In this document: piece by piece, positions 1 through 46,163 of the stretch | Layout: each line of letters opens with the position of its first letter | How positions within the stretch are numbered: the first letter of the stretch is position 1 | IMG/VR virus record: IMGVR_UViG_3300045971_000432 | Span: 1 to 51,010 of that record | Origin: a virus | Reading direction: 5' to 3' (one strand) | Length of the DNA: 51,010 nt | The notes under the pieces: generated by a model | Told to the model about the DNA's origin: nothing | The model's input: the letters and a program-made list of their open reading frames with translations, nothing else | Database searches by the model: none | Program-made: the position numbers and the translations under genes

Positions 1-265
1 CTGAATATCTAAATTCCACTCCAGCTTCTTTCTCATTTGTTGCTACAACATCAGCTACAAATAATTTCATTGCATCTGCACCGAACATCTTACCAAATGT
101 TTCAAAGTTTTTTCCACCTACTCGAGCACCAGAACCTGGGCTTCTAATAAATGTTAATGGCGCTAAAGCAGTTGAAAGCTTTTTAGCAATCTGTCCCTCA
201 AATCCTGAACCCTTTCCTTTAGAATTTATCTTTTTCTTCTTTGTAATTTCTTTTTGCTGTTCCAT
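1..265 (-). CDS. Nuclease-like protein, 3' part cut by window edge
   Basis: This gene runs off the left edge; only the first 88 codons are visible. I placed the start at the ATG at 265-263, which has an AAGGA ribosome site about 11 nt upstream and opens MEQQKEITKKKK. A basic N terminus is followed by SKGKGSGFEGQIAKKLS and RSPGSGARVGG. This pattern resembles small phage PD-(D/E)XK / Holliday-junction-resolvase-like endonucleases, in which a KGxxxE helix precedes a GSGA-type turn and then a metal-binding Asp; here an Asp-containing stretch (FVADVVATN) follows. The family call is from memory of the motif and the catalytic core is incomplete in the window. The start lies inside the last 47 nt of the upstream GIY-YIG gene. 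Confidence 0.5.
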   Translation of the reverse strand, partial: MEQQKEITKKKKINSKGKGSGFEGQIAKKLSTALAPLTFIRSPGSGARVGGKNFETFGKMFGADAMKLFVADVVATNEKEAGVEFRYS

Positions 266-971
266 TGTTTTCCATTTCCTTAAGTTGTTTTCGGGTCAAA
301 TTTAGTTCTTTCATTGCTGTCATTCCGGAAGTATATATTTTGCCAAATATATAAAAAGCATTTGCGTTTCCTGGGGTGTGTCCGGGCTTGCCTCGATTAG
401 CTTTCCCTATTTCCGACATGATATTTGATCTTTCAACCGAATTTAATTTTTTCTGAGCGATCGACATTTTTATTTTTGTTTCTGCTGATTTAGTTTGTCC
501 AGTAAGACCTAGGGATGTCTTTGTTTTATGTGCATCAGACATAGGTTTTCCTCGCCTACCCTTACCATAGATTTTATTTCTTTCATCAACAGAAAGTGAA
601 TCATAATATGCTTGGAGTGTTGTACTTATTTTTTTACAGATTTCTGCCTTTCTTAAAAATGTTTCTGGTCCCCAACCTCCTTCAGCTTTAGCGATATTAA
701 ATAGACTTATTCCTAAACTTCTAAATAATTCCATTGTTATATTCTCTTCTTTAAAATAAATCTCTTTATTATATGGTTCTAATATTTTAACTATCTCAAA
801 AGAGAAAACTATTAAGCCATGTTTATTGAATGAATTTTGAAGATTTTTATTACAGTGTTTATTAAGCAAAAGTTGTGCTTGATGGTCGCCCCAACGTCTA
901 TCGAAATTCTTTGCAGAACCAACATAAATTTGACCTGTTGTATTGTTTGTTATTTTATAAATGCCACCCAT
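219..971 (-). CDS. GIY-YIG homing endonuclease with NUMOD repeats
   Basis: Probable free-standing homing endonuclease that cuts an intron-less or endonuclease-less allele to spread itself. The N terminus (residues 2-30) shows the GIY-YIG core: GGIYKI, then GQIYVGSA, then RRW with the conserved Arg and a following His. The middle and C-terminal half hold NUMOD3-like DNA-binding repeats (GRRGKPMSDAHK, GLTGQTKSAETKIKMS, GKANRGKPGHTPGNAN), followed by a helix-turn-helix-like tail (SGMTAMKELNLTRKQLKEM). The 250-aa length is normal for the family. The start has a strong AAAGGAG site 8 nt upstream and a perfect TATAAATA late box just before it. Its last codons carry the ribosome site and start codon of the next gene. 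Lineage-specific target site is not determinable here. Confidence 0.88.
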   Translation of the reverse strand: MGGIYKITNNTTGQIYVGSAKNFDRRWGDHQAQLLLNKHCNKNLQNSFNKHGLIVFSFEIVKILEPYNKEIYFKEENITMELFRSLGISLFNIAKAEGGWGPETFLRKAEICKKISTTLQAYYDSLSVDERNKIYGKGRRGKPMSDAHKTKTSLGLTGQTKSAETKIKMSIAQKKLNSVERSNIMSEIGKANRGKPGHTPGNANAFYIFGKIYTSGMTAMKELNLTRKQLKEMENNGTAKRNYKEEKDKF

Positions 972-4264: not shown

Positions 4265-5080
4265 TTATTTCCTTCCCGCAAAATAAGACGCTCCAATCAC
4301 GTGATCACCAGTTAGTTTATTTTTTTCAACTGGTGCAGGAACATCAGGGGCAGGCTGATTGATGATAGTAATATTTCCCTTCTCATCAACAGTATAATCT
4401 TCTGGGCTATAGATCGTTATTGTTCCTGGTTGTCTGCCTGGATGTCTGACATAATTTTCTTTTGGGAGTGGTGCTAATATAATCCCAGCTTGTATGAGTG
4501 CATTAGCAGCTGCTAACTCTGTTGCGGTCTGAACTCGTTCTAAAGCCTCAGTGAAATTTGTATTATCAACAACAGGTGCAGAAATGTCTGCGCTTATTTC
4601 ATCTGATTCTTTAATTTCAAAGTGCTGTTCATCCTTTTCTCCCTGCATAAAATTATAACTAGGATTGGATCCAGCATCAATTATCAAAGCATCTCGAATA
4701 TTTCGATGATTCTTCTCATGCCCCAAACATTGAAGGAATGAGTTATGAATAGCAGAAGTATAATATGAGAAGGGATTTTTACCGCGATCTGTATCAAATC
4801 TTAATGCATTACATTTATCATAAAGATTGAAAGTTGCTGATGCAACCATATCTTCTCTGAAAGAGTAACCGATAAAATTTGATTTTCTAGAGTAACGTTC
4901 AGCTATTAGCCGAATCATTTGATGTAATTCAGGTGTAACAAAACCTAATGCCTTTGCTCTGATTACCTCAGGTAACAGAATTGCATTAGTGACATAATAT
5001 CCTTTAGTCGAGGTTGATTTTTCCCTTTTAGCTCTTGGGGCTTTAGGTGCATCTGGTGATTTAGCTGATCTTTTAAACAA
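4265..5080 (-). CDS. 55: Late-transcription sigma factor, gp55-like, with long C-terminal tail
   Basis: Divergent sigma that directs host RNA polymerase to TATAAATA late promoters. Residues about 55-130 match the gp55 core: IRLIAERYSRKSNFIGYS, then EDMVASATFNLYDKCNAL, F(D)TDRGKNPFSYYTSAIHNSFLQ, where the NPFxYxTxxxxNxF element is the conserved sigma region 2-like helix. T4 gp55 is 185 aa; this one is 271 aa, with a basic, proline-rich N terminus and about 100 extra C-terminal residues of acidic then proline-rich sequence. The start is TTG at 5080 with GGAG 8 nt upstream; no ATG lies before residue 55. A sigma70-type promoter precedes it. I cannot see a clear T4-like clamp-binding tail. Confidence 0.88.
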   Translation of the reverse strand: MFKRSAKSPDAPKAPRAKREKSTSTKGYYVTNAILLPEVIRAKALGFVTPELHQMIRLIAERYSRKSNFIGYSFREDMVASATFNLYDKCNALRFDTDRGKNPFSYYTSAIHNSFLQCLGHEKNHRNIRDALIIDAGSNPSYNFMQGEKDEQHFEIKESDEISADISAPVVDNTNFTEALERVQTATELAAANALIQAGIILAPLPKENYVRHPGRQPGTITIYSPEDYTVDEKGNITIINQPAPDVPAPVEKNKLTGDHVIGASYFAGRK

Positions 5081-11144: not shown

Positions 11145-11924
11145 ATGTTTAAAGATAACAAATATAAAACTTGGTATTTAAGTCTTATGACTAAATCGAA
11201 TAACAGAAATTTGTCATCTGAAATTTATACTGAGTCGCATCATATTATTCCTAGAAGTTTAGGTGGAACAAATGAAGATTCTAATCTTGTGGTATTGACG
11301 GCTAGAGAGCATTTTATTGCGCATTTACTTTTAAGCAAATTTACTACTGGACAAGCAGTGTATAAAATGAATAAAGCAGTAAAAATGATGACTTGTAATA
11401 TAGTGCTCAGAGATAAATCTATTATCAGTCGGTACAATCCTCCTTCTAAAATCTATGAAATACTTAGGAAGTTATCTAATGGTGAACATTCTAAAGAGAC
11501 TAGAAAATTAATTTCGGAAAATTTAAAAGGTTGGACATCAAGAAAAAATCCCGAAGAATTAATAGCAATGAAAATTAAACAGAGTAAAGCACATTTAGGA
11601 AAGAAATTAACTGAAATTACTAAGTTAAAGATGGGACAAGCTAAAATTGGCAAAGCTAGAAATCCAGAAATAGGAAAAAAGATTGGAATTTCGCAAACAG
11701 GTAAATACGTATCAAATGAAATATGTCTTAAAATTAAAAATTCATTAAAATATCAATGGACGTTAAAAAATCCAGAAGGTTTGATATTAATATCAGATGA
11801 TTTATTACAATTCTGTGATGATAATTCAGTAGTTTATTCATCATTAATAAAAACACTAGTGTCAGGCATGCCTTTAGAAAAAGGTAGATCAAAAGGCTGG
11901 CAAGTTATAGGAAGAACTAAATGA
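11145..11924 (+). CDS. HNH homing endonuclease with NUMOD3 repeats
   Basis: A 259-aa homing endonuclease lodged between gp25 and gp6. Residues 28-60 hold the HNH core ESHHIIPRSLGGTNEDSN, followed by LVVLTAREHFIAHLLL. The paired His, the Asn and the distal His are all in place. From about 110 to 190 come NUMOD3-type DNA-binding repeats (GEHSKETRKLISENLKG, then KQSKAHLGKKLTEITKLKMG, AKIGKARNPEIGKKIG). The C-terminal DDNSVVYSSLIKTLVSG looks like a helix-turn-helix (IENR1/NUMOD1-like) element. The stop overlaps the gp6 start as ATGA, so its insertion kept translation of gp6 coupled. It is richer in Lys/Ile than its neighbours. It is likely mobile and not needed for tail assembly. Confidence 0.88.
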   Translation: MFKDNKYKTWYLSLMTKSNNRNLSSEIYTESHHIIPRSLGGTNEDSNLVVLTAREHFIAHLLLSKFTTGQAVYKMNKAVKMMTCNIVLRDKSIISRYNPPSKIYEILRKLSNGEHSKETRKLISENLKGWTSRKNPEELIAMKIKQSKAHLGKKLTEITKLKMGQAKIGKARNPEIGKKIGISQTGKYVSNEICLKIKNSLKYQWTLKNPEGLILISDDLLQFCDDNSVVYSSLIKTLVSGMPLEKGRSKGWQVIGRTK

Positions 11925-42737: not shown

Positions 42738-45700
42738 TTAGGATTTATTTACTGGTGCTGATGTTTCTGGTCCAGCAAGCTGTTGATCTATAAAATCTGT
42801 CAATCGCTGCATTTTAGTAACTGCTGATGTTTTTGCAGCAAACTTTAGCATCTTTGATTTAACTTGAGGCATCATCATTTGACGACTAATAGATGTTGTT
42901 TTAGCTGGATCAAATCCGAACGTGGTGAACAATTTCATCATCAACGCGTTCGCATCATCCATATTTTCCAACAGTACTGATTCTTTAATAGGCATATCAG
43001 TATCTGCCATATTTCTAGTTTTATCAGCAACACCCATAATATCCGCAATCATGTTTAAATTTGTGCGAGCTTTATTATTAACTTGAATTTGTTTAGCTTT
43101 AGCGTGGATGCTCTTTAATAATGGTCCGGAAAAAGTGGATTCAATACCTTCTGGCATGCCCAAAGCAACTATTAAATTATAAATTAAATGTGGATATTTA
43201 CCATTGAGTCTCTTCTCAAAAGATTCTGATTCTGTAACTTCATCAGCATCTTTCATAGAAGTAAGAAATTTATTTACCCACATTTTAAATGAATTGTTTT
43301 TAAGATATAATTCACCAGCAGCCTCAACTGTATTTTTCAATTCAGCTTTGTGAACTAAGAGAGCTTTTTGCGGAACTCCTAAAGCTAATAGTAATGTAAC
43401 TATAGCTTTATCTTGTTTCTTAGGAACGCTGGCTAATATTTTATCAACACTAGCAGCAAGTTTTTCTCTAGAAGCAACTACAGCTGGATCTTCAGCATTG
43501 TCAATTTCTTCTTCTTTATTTTTCTTTTCTTTACCCTCGTTCAAAACGCGTTGTAAAAATTTTTCGCCGAATGACTGCATAGATTCCTCCGTTGGGGTTT
43601 TTGGTTTTTTGTGTTTCTTTTTAGGTAAGCCACCTGGCTTAGGAGATGAATCATCTTCAGATTCTTCTTCATTTTCAGTAGGCTCTTCTTCATCATCACT
43701 CGATGCAGTTGGATCAAGATCAGTTAATTCTTCATCTTCATTCTCTTCATCGCCTGCTGGTTCTTCATCTTCATCTTCATCACTTGACACACTTGGATCA
43801 AGATCAGTTAATTCTTCGTCACTAGATGGTTCTTCATCTGCTAGTTCTTCATTATCATTAATTGAAAAATCTGGTTCTTCATTTGATTCTGGTTCGGGTA
43901 CATCATCTGTCGCAGAAAGATCATCAGAATCAACATCATCTGGACTGGTATCTGCACTAACATCATCAATATTAACATCAGTAGGAATATCGTCTACTGC
44001 TTTAACTAAAGATTCAGGCCATTCAACGTCAACAATGTCATACGTGTTAGCTAAAGTATTAATAACTTCAGCAACATCATCTTCTTGTCCCAATAATTCT
44101 GATAAAGTTTCCTCAAAATTATCAGCTTGTGCTGCATTAACATAAATCTTAACAACAGATCCATCATCTGTTTCCATACCAAATGTTACAGTATCAACCT
44201 CGTCATTTAATTCAGTTGCTTTATCTAAATATTTAGAGACATCAGTCTGATTAATATTCTGACCCATAGCAACATTGTTTCTGAGTTTTTTAAATTCAAT
44301 ATTATTTTGTGAGTTCGCTTTGTCATCCACATCTTTTGCGAATGCCATATCTCCACCAACTGCAGCATCTTCAGTAATAGATGATGTTATTGCTTTCATT
44401 AACAGTAATTTGTTTTCCATTTTTGCTTCTGGTTGCGCAAACTTTTTAATCTTTACGAAGTTTCTTGGACGACGTGTTATAACTTTGCCTTTTATTAATT
44501 TAAATGGCACTGGTGCAATATCTCCTGATACCGTAGTATCTGCAGATGCAGCTTCTCCATCCTCAATAATGGATTTCATAAATGCAAAATTTTCTTTCAT
44601 ATCTCCATCACCCTCAAAAAGAGATTCAATTGTCTTACCATATAGTGCTAACACTAATTCGCCTGGAGTCTCACTTCTAATAACTCTAGAATTTACTTCA
44701 GCAATATCCTTTTTGGTTTCTGCAAATGCTGTTAGTGTCCGCTTCATAACCTCTGGTGAAATTCCAATTTCTTTACCAGTTTTTAATTGAAGCTTGTATG
44801 TACCGGCATCCTTCTTAAAACTATCTAGAATTGAGTTAACTTCTTTTAGTGAATTTTTAAGAATTGCTGAAATTTTTATTTTTATAGATTGAAGATTTAA
44901 TATATTTAAGCTTTCAGCAATAGCTTCTGCTGTGCTCACAACATCATTTTGTTTAAATTTAGTAACGAATCTCTTTACACCTGAAGACAATGCAAGTTCT
45001 TTTGCACCTAAGATATCAGCTATTCTAATTTTTGCCTGTCCAAAAGATCCACCGCGCAATTCTAAAGTAGCATCTTGATCAGTAGTTCTAACTAAACCAG
45101 CAACTTCAGCTCTAACAGACGAATTGAATGTATTAATAGCTGTAAAAATATCCTTGTCAACAATCTTTGTCATAGCACCAGATACTGGGTCTCTAACAAC
45201 TACTCCTTCAACACCTATATCTTCAGAAGGATGTAAATCATCTGCTTGTAAGAATGGTTTTATTTTACGTACAAACTTCGTTAACAACAATTCTTTAATA
45301 GGTTTTTTAAATTCTGTTTGAATGTATTCTGCTGTCTTTTCACGAGCACTCTTTGCAGCTTCGCGTTCTGCTTTAGGAACAGATGTAAGAGATAGCTCTA
45401 CTACTTCTTGATTTGTTTTTTCTGGCAATAATTTATTTGAAGCTTGTGAGAATTTTTTAAGCTCTGCTAGTCTAGTTATTACTTCAGATGTGTCAATCTT
45501 TTCAGCATCAATAGGTTTAACTTGAACAAATTCCCATGTCATTTGTTCGTCATTTGATTCAAGGGTATTACCATCAGTTGAAGAAATTACTGTTGATGTA
45601 ACATTAACAGTCTTATTCTTGAGTGCATTCGCTAACGCATCAACTCTTTCGCTTGGCGTACCGTTTACACCTCTAAGTAATACGATGAAATTTTTATTTG

Positions 45701-46076
45701 AAACACCATAAGTAACTGTATTAGGTTGTCTACCGTATAGAACTTCAATCTCAACCATGTCACCATCTTTAAGATGCTTCTTAATAGTTGGTTCAACCTG
45801 CTCTAATGCTAGATGAGTTGCTCTAAATGAATTATAGTTAGCAACCATTTGATAATCACCGACATTATAAAATCTTGCTTTTTTAGGTGATTTACCTTCT
45901 CGAGAAGTAAACAAACCATTTTCATCTAGCCCAAACCACAGGTTAGCACCATCTAATTTTTCAGTTACTATTTTATCTTTTAAAGATTCTACTGTCCTTA
46001 TAAACTCATTTAAAGGAAGATCCTCAAGATGAGTAATAGATTCTAAAATGATAGTATTGTTTAACAATGGGCTCAT
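42738..46076 (-). CDS. Large ligase/nucleotidyltransferase-like protein with acidic repeat region
   Basis: An 1112-aa protein of three parts. Residues 1-330 look like an ATP-dependent ligase/nucleotidyltransferase fold: VTEKLDGANLWFG (K-x-DG motif I), FTSREGK (motif Ia/III), VEIEVLYG, and GVEGVVVRDP (motif IV, EG). The lead-in THLEDL before KLDG recalls a family of T4-like marine phage proteins with a TH-x-ED ... K-x-DG-x-P signature. Residues about 700-860 are extremely Asp/Glu/Ser-rich and contain two copies of ELTDLDP-x-x-SSD. The C terminus (860-1112) is helical and basic, including FGEKFLQRVLNEGKE. Motif V could not be placed, so catalytic competence is uncertain. A perfect TATAAATA lies upstream, indicating late expression. 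No ribosome site is clear. Confidence 0.62.
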   Translation of the reverse strand: MSPLLNNTIILESITHLEDLPLNEFIRTVESLKDKIVTEKLDGANLWFGLDENGLFTSREGKSPKKARFYNVGDYQMVANYNSFRATHLALEQVEPTIKKHLKDGDMVEIEVLYGRQPNTVTYGVSNKNFIVLLRGVNGTPSERVDALANALKNKTVNVTSTVISSTDGNTLESNDEQMTWEFVQVKPIDAEKIDTSEVITRLAELKKFSQASNKLLPEKTNQEVVELSLTSVPKAEREAAKSAREKTAEYIQTEFKKPIKELLLTKFVRKIKPFLQADDLHPSEDIGVEGVVVRDPVSGAMTKIVDKDIFTAINTFNSSVRAEVAGLVRTTDQDATLELRGGSFGQAKIRIADILGAKELALSSGVKRFVTKFKQNDVVSTAEAIAESLNILNLQSIKIKISAILKNSLKEVNSILDSFKKDAGTYKLQLKTGKEIGISPEVMKRTLTAFAETKKDIAEVNSRVIRSETPGELVLALYGKTIESLFEGDGDMKENFAFMKSIIEDGEAASADTTVSGDIAPVPFKLIKGKVITRRPRNFVKIKKFAQPEAKMENKLLLMKAITSSITEDAAVGGDMAFAKDVDDKANSQNNIEFKKLRNNVAMGQNINQTDVSKYLDKATELNDEVDTVTFGMETDDGSVVKIYVNAAQADNFEETLSELLGQEDDVAEVINTLANTYDIVDVEWPESLVKAVDDIPTDVNIDDVSADTSPDDVDSDDLSATDDVPEPESNEEPDFSINDNEELADEEPSSDEELTDLDPSVSSDEDEDEEPAGDEENEDEELTDLDPTASSDDEEEPTENEEESEDDSSPKPGGLPKKKHKKPKTPTEESMQSFGEKFLQRVLNEGKEKKNKEEEIDNAEDPAVVASREKLAASVDKILASVPKKQDKAIVTLLLALGVPQKALLVHKAELKNTVEAAGELYLKNNSFKMWVNKFLTSMKDADEVTESESFEKRLNGKYPHLIYNLIVALGMPEGIESTFSGPLLKSIHAKAKQIQVNNKARTNLNMIADIMGVADKTRNMADTDMPIKESVLLENMDDANALMMKLFTTFGFDPAKTTSISRQMMMPQVKSKMLKFAAKTSAVTKMQRLTDFIDQQLAGPETSAPVNKS
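43709..43817. repeat. Two direct 25-bp repeats in acidic region
   Basis: Identical 25-bp units at 43709-43733 and 43793-43817 (starting TTGGATCAAGATCAG) encode the repeated ELTDLDP segment. Exact identity at DNA level, while the sequence between differs, points to a recent duplication or conversion. Confidence 0.85.
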
Positions 46077-46110: not shown

Positions 46111-46118
46111 TATTTATA
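46111..46118 (-). promoter_or_regulatory. T4-type late promoter box for the ligase-like gene
   Basis: Perfect TATAAATA on the minus strand, 34 nt before the ATG at 46076 and right after a strong terminator, so the acidic ligase-like gene begins its own late transcript. Confidence 0.65.
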
Positions 46119-46137
46119 GATTTTTCTCGCATCAAAG

Positions 46138-46163
46138 AAAAAGGAGCTCTAGAGCTCCTTTTT
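46138..46163. terminator. Perfectly symmetrical bidirectional terminator
   Basis: AAAAAGGAGCTCT is followed directly by its exact reverse complement, giving a GC-rich stem (GGAGCTC) flanked by A and T tracts on both strands. It lies 19 nt past the stop of the 90-aa gene and ends the replisome transcript. Confidence 0.88.

Follow-up and report, generated by a model that had tools for sequence, protein, structure and literature searches.

A predicted late head polyprotein carrying an RNA-ligase-type domain in a T4-like jumbo phage lineage

Few enzymes are known to be carried in phage heads, examples being T4 Alt and the virion RNA polymerases, and the prohead core proteins gp22, gp67 and gp68 of T4 are cut by gp21 into several fragments. 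The T4 prohead protease gp21 cleaves after L/I-X-E, and the ten N-terminal residues of IPIII are enough to direct a protein into the T4 head (PMC9026906). The T4 enzyme Alt reaches the head via a capsid-targeting leader (PMC9026906, PMC9958956). Polyvalent proteins are multi-domain proteins that are thought to be injected with the DNA and have been described as released by an embedded peptidase (PMC5512222). A literature search for papers on a ligase in phage heads found none in the library covered.

The window analysed here is a 51-kb virus contig (51,010 nucleotides) of a T4-like jumbo myovirus lineage. It encodes baseplate proteins, primase, DnaB, SbcCD and a gp55-like late sigma factor (4265-5080(-)), and no head or protease genes were recognised within this fragment. 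Two homing-endonuclease-like genes are also present, at 219-971(-) and at 11145-11924(+), the second being squeezed between baseplate genes. After primase and DnaB lies an ATG-started ORF (42738-46076(-)) of 1112 aa, which forms the subject of this work. The protein resembles the T4 internal proteins and Alt in its short N-terminal [LI]xE leader, its predicted late expression and the S77 protease (here found in relatives), and Alt, too, is an enzyme that travels in the T4 head and is ejected. It differs from them in its ligase-like nucleotidyltransferase, which is fused to another head gene that also bears a leader, and in its several internal sites; its packaging is predicted. Like the polyvalent proteins it is multi-domain; however, no peptidase domain was matched in Pfam or PHROGs, and cutting would be performed by the prohead protease. 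The coordinates of the features are collected in Table 1.

Table 1. Features of the 1112-aa ORF and its upstream region, and members of the partner family (a slash marks the predicted cut point)
Feature	Position	Strand	Basis or remark
Inverted repeat GGAGCTC-TA-GAGCTCC with T-rich run	46134..46160	-	read from sequence; loop of 2 nt
T4-type late promoter element TATAAATA	46111..46118	-	42 nt upstream of ATG; conserved position
Predicted capsid-targeting leader MSPLLNNTIILE, residues 1-12	46041..46076	-	ends in [LI]xE; leader rule and matrix rank 1
Predicted mature ligase-like enzyme, residues 13-505	44562..46040	-	nucleotidyltransferase ~13-318, helical domain ~319-487
Motif I, K40-L-D-G43, predicted adenylated lysine	45948..45959	-	sequence motif and conservation
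Motif IV, E290-G291	45204..45209	-	invariant in 48 sequences
Motif V, K304-I-V-D-K308	45153..45167	-	K304 invariant in 48 sequences
Site B, E505 (MKSIIE/D)	44562..44564	-	[LIVM]xE in 12/13 close homologs; disordered in model
Disordered basic peptide, residues 506-569	44370..44561	-	pI 9.9; model
Site C, E569 (SSITE/D)	44370..44372	-	[LIVM]xE in 11/13 close homologs; disordered in model
Folded alpha/beta module C, residues 570-691	44004..44369	-	model; separate downstream gene in relatives
Acidic disordered region, residues 692-833	43578..44003	-	model and composition
Site D, E847 (QRVLNE/G)	43536..43538	-	[LIVM]xE in 13/13 close homologs; flanks poorly conserved
Helical bead D1, residues 864-942	43251..43487	-	model
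Possible site E949 (DEVTE/S)	43230..43232	-	disordered linker
Helical bead D2, residues 960-1020	43017..43199	-	homologous to D1; model
Possible site E1037 (SVLLE/N)	42966..42968	-	linker
Helical bead E, residues 1039-1100	42777..42962	-	model
Pol-beta-like members	L137:1590-2453; L007:15330-16217; L001:10570-11283 (PA5oct gp253); L002:9202-10062; L051, L052, L053, L068, others	- (L137)

The ligase-like domain and its relatives

The first-pass annotation had recognised K-x-DG and EG motifs in the 1112-aa ORF, which are indeed present, the full set being TEK40-L-D-G43, E109-I-E111, V-E290-G291 and K304-I-V-D-K308. The covalent nucleotidyltransferase fold that it had proposed is borne out by structure prediction. 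The AlphaFold2 model of residues 13-506, calculated with 48 homologs, reached a pLDDT of 90 and a pTM of 0.85, and the top matches among solved structures were RNA ligases, namely Naegleria RNA ligase (Z 8.8), RNA editing ligase 1 (8.7), T4 Rnl1 (8.2) and T4 Rnl2 (8.0), with rmsd values mostly of 3.3-4.0 over ~180 residues; unrelated helical structures scored Z 6.7 and below. Foldseek E-values for the model were weak. When the ligase alignment was used directly as a profile against solved structures, nothing but chance matches of helical type emerged, and the fold claim accordingly rests on the model. Across the 48 sequences, E99, E278, G279 and K292 (mature numbering) are invariant, and the second lysine of motif V (K308 in the window protein) is K/R wherever this motif was recognised. 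EK[LI]DG occurs in every aligned member, although this universality is partly by construction, since one search pattern required motif I. In motifs I, III, IV and V the catalytic residues show little or no variation, even among relatives with as little as 21% identity; self-adenylation on K40 and strand sealing are the predicted activities.

The Pfam family PF09414 (RNA_ligase) was matched by 38/48 members at E<=0.01 (best 3.9e-7), the window protein itself scoring 19-22 bits, which is below the curated cut-off of 27. In PHROGs there was no match for the window protein and weak RNA-ligase matches for 13/48 relatives, and the NCBIfam search gave nothing useful. The enzyme shares motifs I, III, IV and V and the nucleotidyltransferase fold with phage RNA ligases (PF09414; T4 Rnl1 and Rnl2) and the Naegleria RNA ligase, but differs from them in its low identity (~10-15%), a helical insertion before motif IV, another helical C-terminal domain and the capsid leader. 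A DNA ligase that is packaged to seal nicks in the incoming genome, or to circularise it, would share the packaging arguments presented below. This alternative is nevertheless regarded as unlikely: the domain after motif V is all-helical, unlike that of DNA ligases, RNA ligases head the list of structural matches, and PF09414 is matched while PF01068 is not among the Pfam matches of the family. Membership of the ATP-dependent DNA ligases was rejected because no OB-fold follows motif V; residues 306-475 of the model are helical, with only two short strands. In the confidently modelled structure, the fold of the window enzyme is of the RNA-ligase rather than the DNA-ligase type. Other RNA ligases of the ordinary kind, and in most cases a DNA ligase too, are encoded in the sampled genomes, and the copy studied here is therefore probably specialised.

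A profile scan of IMG/VR yielded 69 ligase loci. Among isolated phages, the domain occurs only in PA5oct-like phages and in Sinorhizobium phage Phosso. The jumbo phage homologs PA5oct gp256 and Phosso XYS97603 belong to the same ligase family, with 31-41% identity over aligned parts, and likewise lie after primase and DnaB, but they are stand-alone, lack an [LI]xE leader and are annotated as hypothetical only. The isolated phages yielded no relative with a leader, PA5oct and Paride representing the leaderless form. A single scan of bacterial genome contigs gave no relative, and therefore no host was inferred.

N-terminal leaders and the late promoter

The first 12 residues of the window protein look like a T4-type capsid-targeting sequence that ends in the prohead-protease motif, with the cut point after E12 (MSPLLNNTIILE/S). 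Across relatives, the ligase domain begins with the pattern [GSA]-I-x-H-[LIVF]-E-D-L, and the leaders ahead of it differ in sequence and length (<=23 residues). Nevertheless, [LI]xE stands exactly at the start of the domain in 26/32 distinct leaders. Shuffled leaders averaged 1.25 over 20,000 trials and never exceeded 7, and shifting the rule by 1-5 residues left 0, 1, 1, 1 and 0 matches. Leaderless relatives open directly with M-[GS]I.HLED; the leader is absent from a clade of six (L028, L029, L031, L033, L038, L055) and from the most distant members. The short N-terminal [LI]xE leader, a feature of T4-type capsid-targeted proteins, is thus present in the ligase family, and it is the most telling of the several [LI]xE junctions of the window protein.

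The ligase gene is separated from primase/DnaB by an inverted repeat with a T-run, which is the probable terminator of the upstream primase/helicase transcript, and by its own TATAAATA element. Within the window this element is not enriched (5 observed vs 9.0 expected), so that its significance derives from the conserved position only. In most of the fused-clade loci checked, which are close homologs, an exact copy precedes the gene by 33-49 nt, and one-base variants occur in the remaining ones and in many more distant loci. The position is retained even in genomes of 50-54% GC, in which there are 1-2 copies per ~17 kb. The earlier placing of the ORF under a late promoter is upheld by this conservation, at the level of sequence, and late expression, which is characteristic of T4-type internal head proteins, is accordingly predicted for the ligase family.

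These data also bear on the possibility of an ordinary late intracellular RNA or DNA ligase, in which the [LI]xE leaders and junctions would be irrelevant and the fusion accidental. Such an enzyme would agree with the absence of leaders in some relatives and with the PA5oct homolog gp256, which carries no virion-protein label and has a leader without [LI]xE. The leader rule, however, lies far beyond chance and is seen again, independently, in both the Pol-beta-like family and the downstream gene described below, the late promoter is retained and a T4-type protease is present in relatives, all of which make this explanation improbable.

Internal sites, the acidic second gene and the Pol-beta-like partner

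Further [LI]xE junctions accompany the leader as part of the suggested head polyprotein. The first-pass annotation had pointed to VLNEG as a speculative prohead-protease site; this position (VLNE/G, residues 844-848) gains support from its conservation in all close homologs despite weakly conserved flanks, and it is one among several such junctions in the window protein. In the models, E505 and E569 lie in disordered linkers and E949 and E1037 inside a linker or at its edge, and E847 falls in a low-confidence helix. The context of the E505 site among close homologs is given as xLIKSINE/D. A site matrix built from the leaders of a 358-kb relative (G004), with its ligase gene left out, placed sites 12, 505, 847 and 569 of the window protein at ranks 1, 3, 5 and 7 of ~1100 positions; both the matrix and the leader scan rely on rough gene calls, and rank 2 was taken by position 388, inside a folded helix. 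Since [LIVM]xE is also seen in folded parts of the ligase, as at residues 388 and 460, counts of the triplet alone were dropped as support for internal sites.

The acidic stretch is 142 residues long and contains 59 D/E and 17 S residues, and its densest 60-residue window holds 33 D/E, compared with a maximum of 26 over 2000 shuffles of the protein. The figure of about 160 residues of Asp/Glu/Ser reported previously thus roughly describes the length of the stretch, while the D/E/S residues themselves number 76. A profile search with the module after E569 showed that module C and the acidic region form a gene of their own immediately downstream of the ligase in unfused relatives (those of the middle clade and some of the distant one), with spacing from a few-base overlap to a gap of ~80 bases. 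In Stenotrophomonas phage RAS14 and Xanthomonas phage XacN1 they also form a stand-alone gene, in the vicinity of head genes. In 19/22 of the separate second genes, [LI]xE lies close to the start, as in MSLLNDINE/A, MKLLKTINE/F, MSLLQKLINE/T and MKFIQNLLE/T, and its internal counterpart in the fused clade, which forms a single branch with full support, is FSLLKSMNE/D. Sequence comparison thus presents the 1112-aa product as a fusion of two adjacent late genes, one for a ligase-like enzyme and one for an acidic head-core-like protein, with site C (E569) as the apparent relic of the leader of the once-separate second gene. Because relatives carry it as a leader-bearing downstream gene of its own, the acidic region is assigned to the head-core-like protein, and the fusion would have preserved the separating site. 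The acidic tract was therefore dropped as part of the ligase; the joining of the two that had been described earlier holds for the window, but it is confined to one clade and concerns a second head gene. The association of the acidic ORF with the head, also suggested before, is supported. The C-terminal region 848-1112 had no match among isolated phages. In the middle clade (ligase ORFs of L028-L048, e.g. L035:9438-10367), the ligase is followed by a different unclassified module of ~200 residues (TDKxRYxGKDAW...), which is flanked by LLxE/K and LVE/D sites; the basic tail after it, RKRNPxxKKxKFPxP, resembles window residues 531-549.

The second part is comparable to T4 gp22, gp67 and gp68 as a core-type protein with protease sites, and is also strongly acidic; it differs in that no sequence match was found and that module C and the helical beads are unclassified. 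It could be argued that the whole product serves the prohead as a core or scaffold protein; the ligase fold would then be structural, the acidic region would drive assembly and catalysis would be irrelevant. Fusion to an acidic head protein rich in protease sites, the late promoter and the other ligases already encoded in the genomes are in line with this explanation, and T4 RNA ligase 1 also helps in tail-fibre attachment. The explanation is considered unlikely, however, in view of the near-invariant catalytic residues of motifs I, III, IV and V in distant relatives and of the ligase remaining a separate protein in most relatives. Provided that packaging of the polyprotein is real, the head very probably contains an RNA-ligase-type enzyme that is catalytically intact.

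A second candidate enzyme accompanies the ligase. In more distant relatives, a Pol-beta-like family is encoded downstream of or near the ligase, and in L053/L054 it is fused. Its members start at GG[KNH]A and share the pattern LGS...SGD[IV]D...VQVD with three invariant aspartates. The Pol-beta label rests on this pattern, because no convincing match was found in Pfam, PHROGs or PDB. RNA-ligase-associated Pol-beta enzymes have been described in jumbo phages (PMC7824862), and the present family is a candidate for membership among them. Leaders of the same type (MLIRELLLE/GG, MLLTE/GG, MVSFKQFLTE/GG, MLTFKTFLLLE/GG) precede the domain, or it is leaderless (M/GG), and in the fused-clade genomes G001 and G004 the gene is separate and leader-bearing. 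The PA5oct member gp253 was annotated as structural by ESI-MS/MS, whereas the PA5oct ligase was not. The pairing of a ligase with a nucleotidyltransferase encoded side by side suggests end repair.

Head genes in relatives and the proposed course of events

An S77 (gp21-type) protease is encoded in 17/23 large relative contigs and also in G001, the Gp23 capsid protein in 16/23, and LxE occurs within the N-terminal part of the relatives' capsid protein. In the 358-kb relative, [LI]xE[GAS] falls in residues 3-25 of 35/371 proteins, compared with 11, 17 and 14 proteins in later windows, and several of the leader-type matches adjoin the capsid gene. Over this whole contig (L122-L140), ~20 proteins with CTS-like leaders are found above expectation, many of them short and unclassified; the proteins with such leaders are probably a list of head-packaged proteins in the lineage. 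The same genome contains a short ORF (L131:4831-5115(-)) with a twin-arginine-like N-terminus (SRRAFFGMA) and ~40 residues matching the start of Gp23 (FKSIIIPMIRKIIPGQIAASIVGVQPM); it directly adjoins an ordinary RNA ligase gene, and a similar match is located at G015:79165-79359. In the window, a cytidylyltransferase-like protein (weak PF01467; 5214-5912(+)) has a leader that ends in [LI]xE (MNLIDDELELNAIFE/N), as does its counterpart at 131647-132348(-) of G001 (MDEQLQLTQLFE/N); the protein is a further possible head-packaged enzyme.

A late prohead polyprotein that delivers a packaged ligase is the best explanation of the combined evidence, namely late expression, the leader rule, the sites at module borders, fusion to a head gene and the relatives' protease, and overall it is considered likely. 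After late transcription, the 12-residue leader would pull the polyprotein into the assembling prohead core in the manner of T4 capsid targeting. The S77 prohead protease would then cut after [LI]-x-E at E12, E505, E569 and E847, and possibly at E949 and E1037, releasing a ligase-like enzyme of ~493 residues, the basic peptide, the acidic head-core protein and the small helical beads. The acidic part would serve as a scaffold or core component, and the enzyme would remain in the head. Packaging and cleavage are regarded as quite probable. The enzyme would charge itself with AMP on K40, and it would most likely be ejected with the DNA to seal nucleic-acid ends before phage gene expression, RNA being the first choice of substrate and DNA nicks the second; this ejection and the repair role at entry are a guess, to which somewhat less than an even chance is given. 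The Pol-beta-like nucleotidyltransferase, following the same leader rule, might act alongside the ligase. In its fullest form, the proposal describes an end-repair kit of the jumbo phage capsid, in which both enzymes are addressed by leaders, released by the protease from polyproteins and ejected in time to mend, ahead of any phage gene expression, tRNA ends or others that host defences have cut, and this version is put forward tentatively, as rather doubtful.

Summarizing, the head polyprotein, if true, would extend the head-packaged enzymes to nucleic-acid sealing and would indicate that two capsid-targeted genes can fuse and yet retain the protease site between them. The rule of [LI]xE before the domain start would become a simple finder of packaged proteins in uncultured jumbo phages, and whether phages repair damage at entry with enzymes that they bring along would become a testable question.
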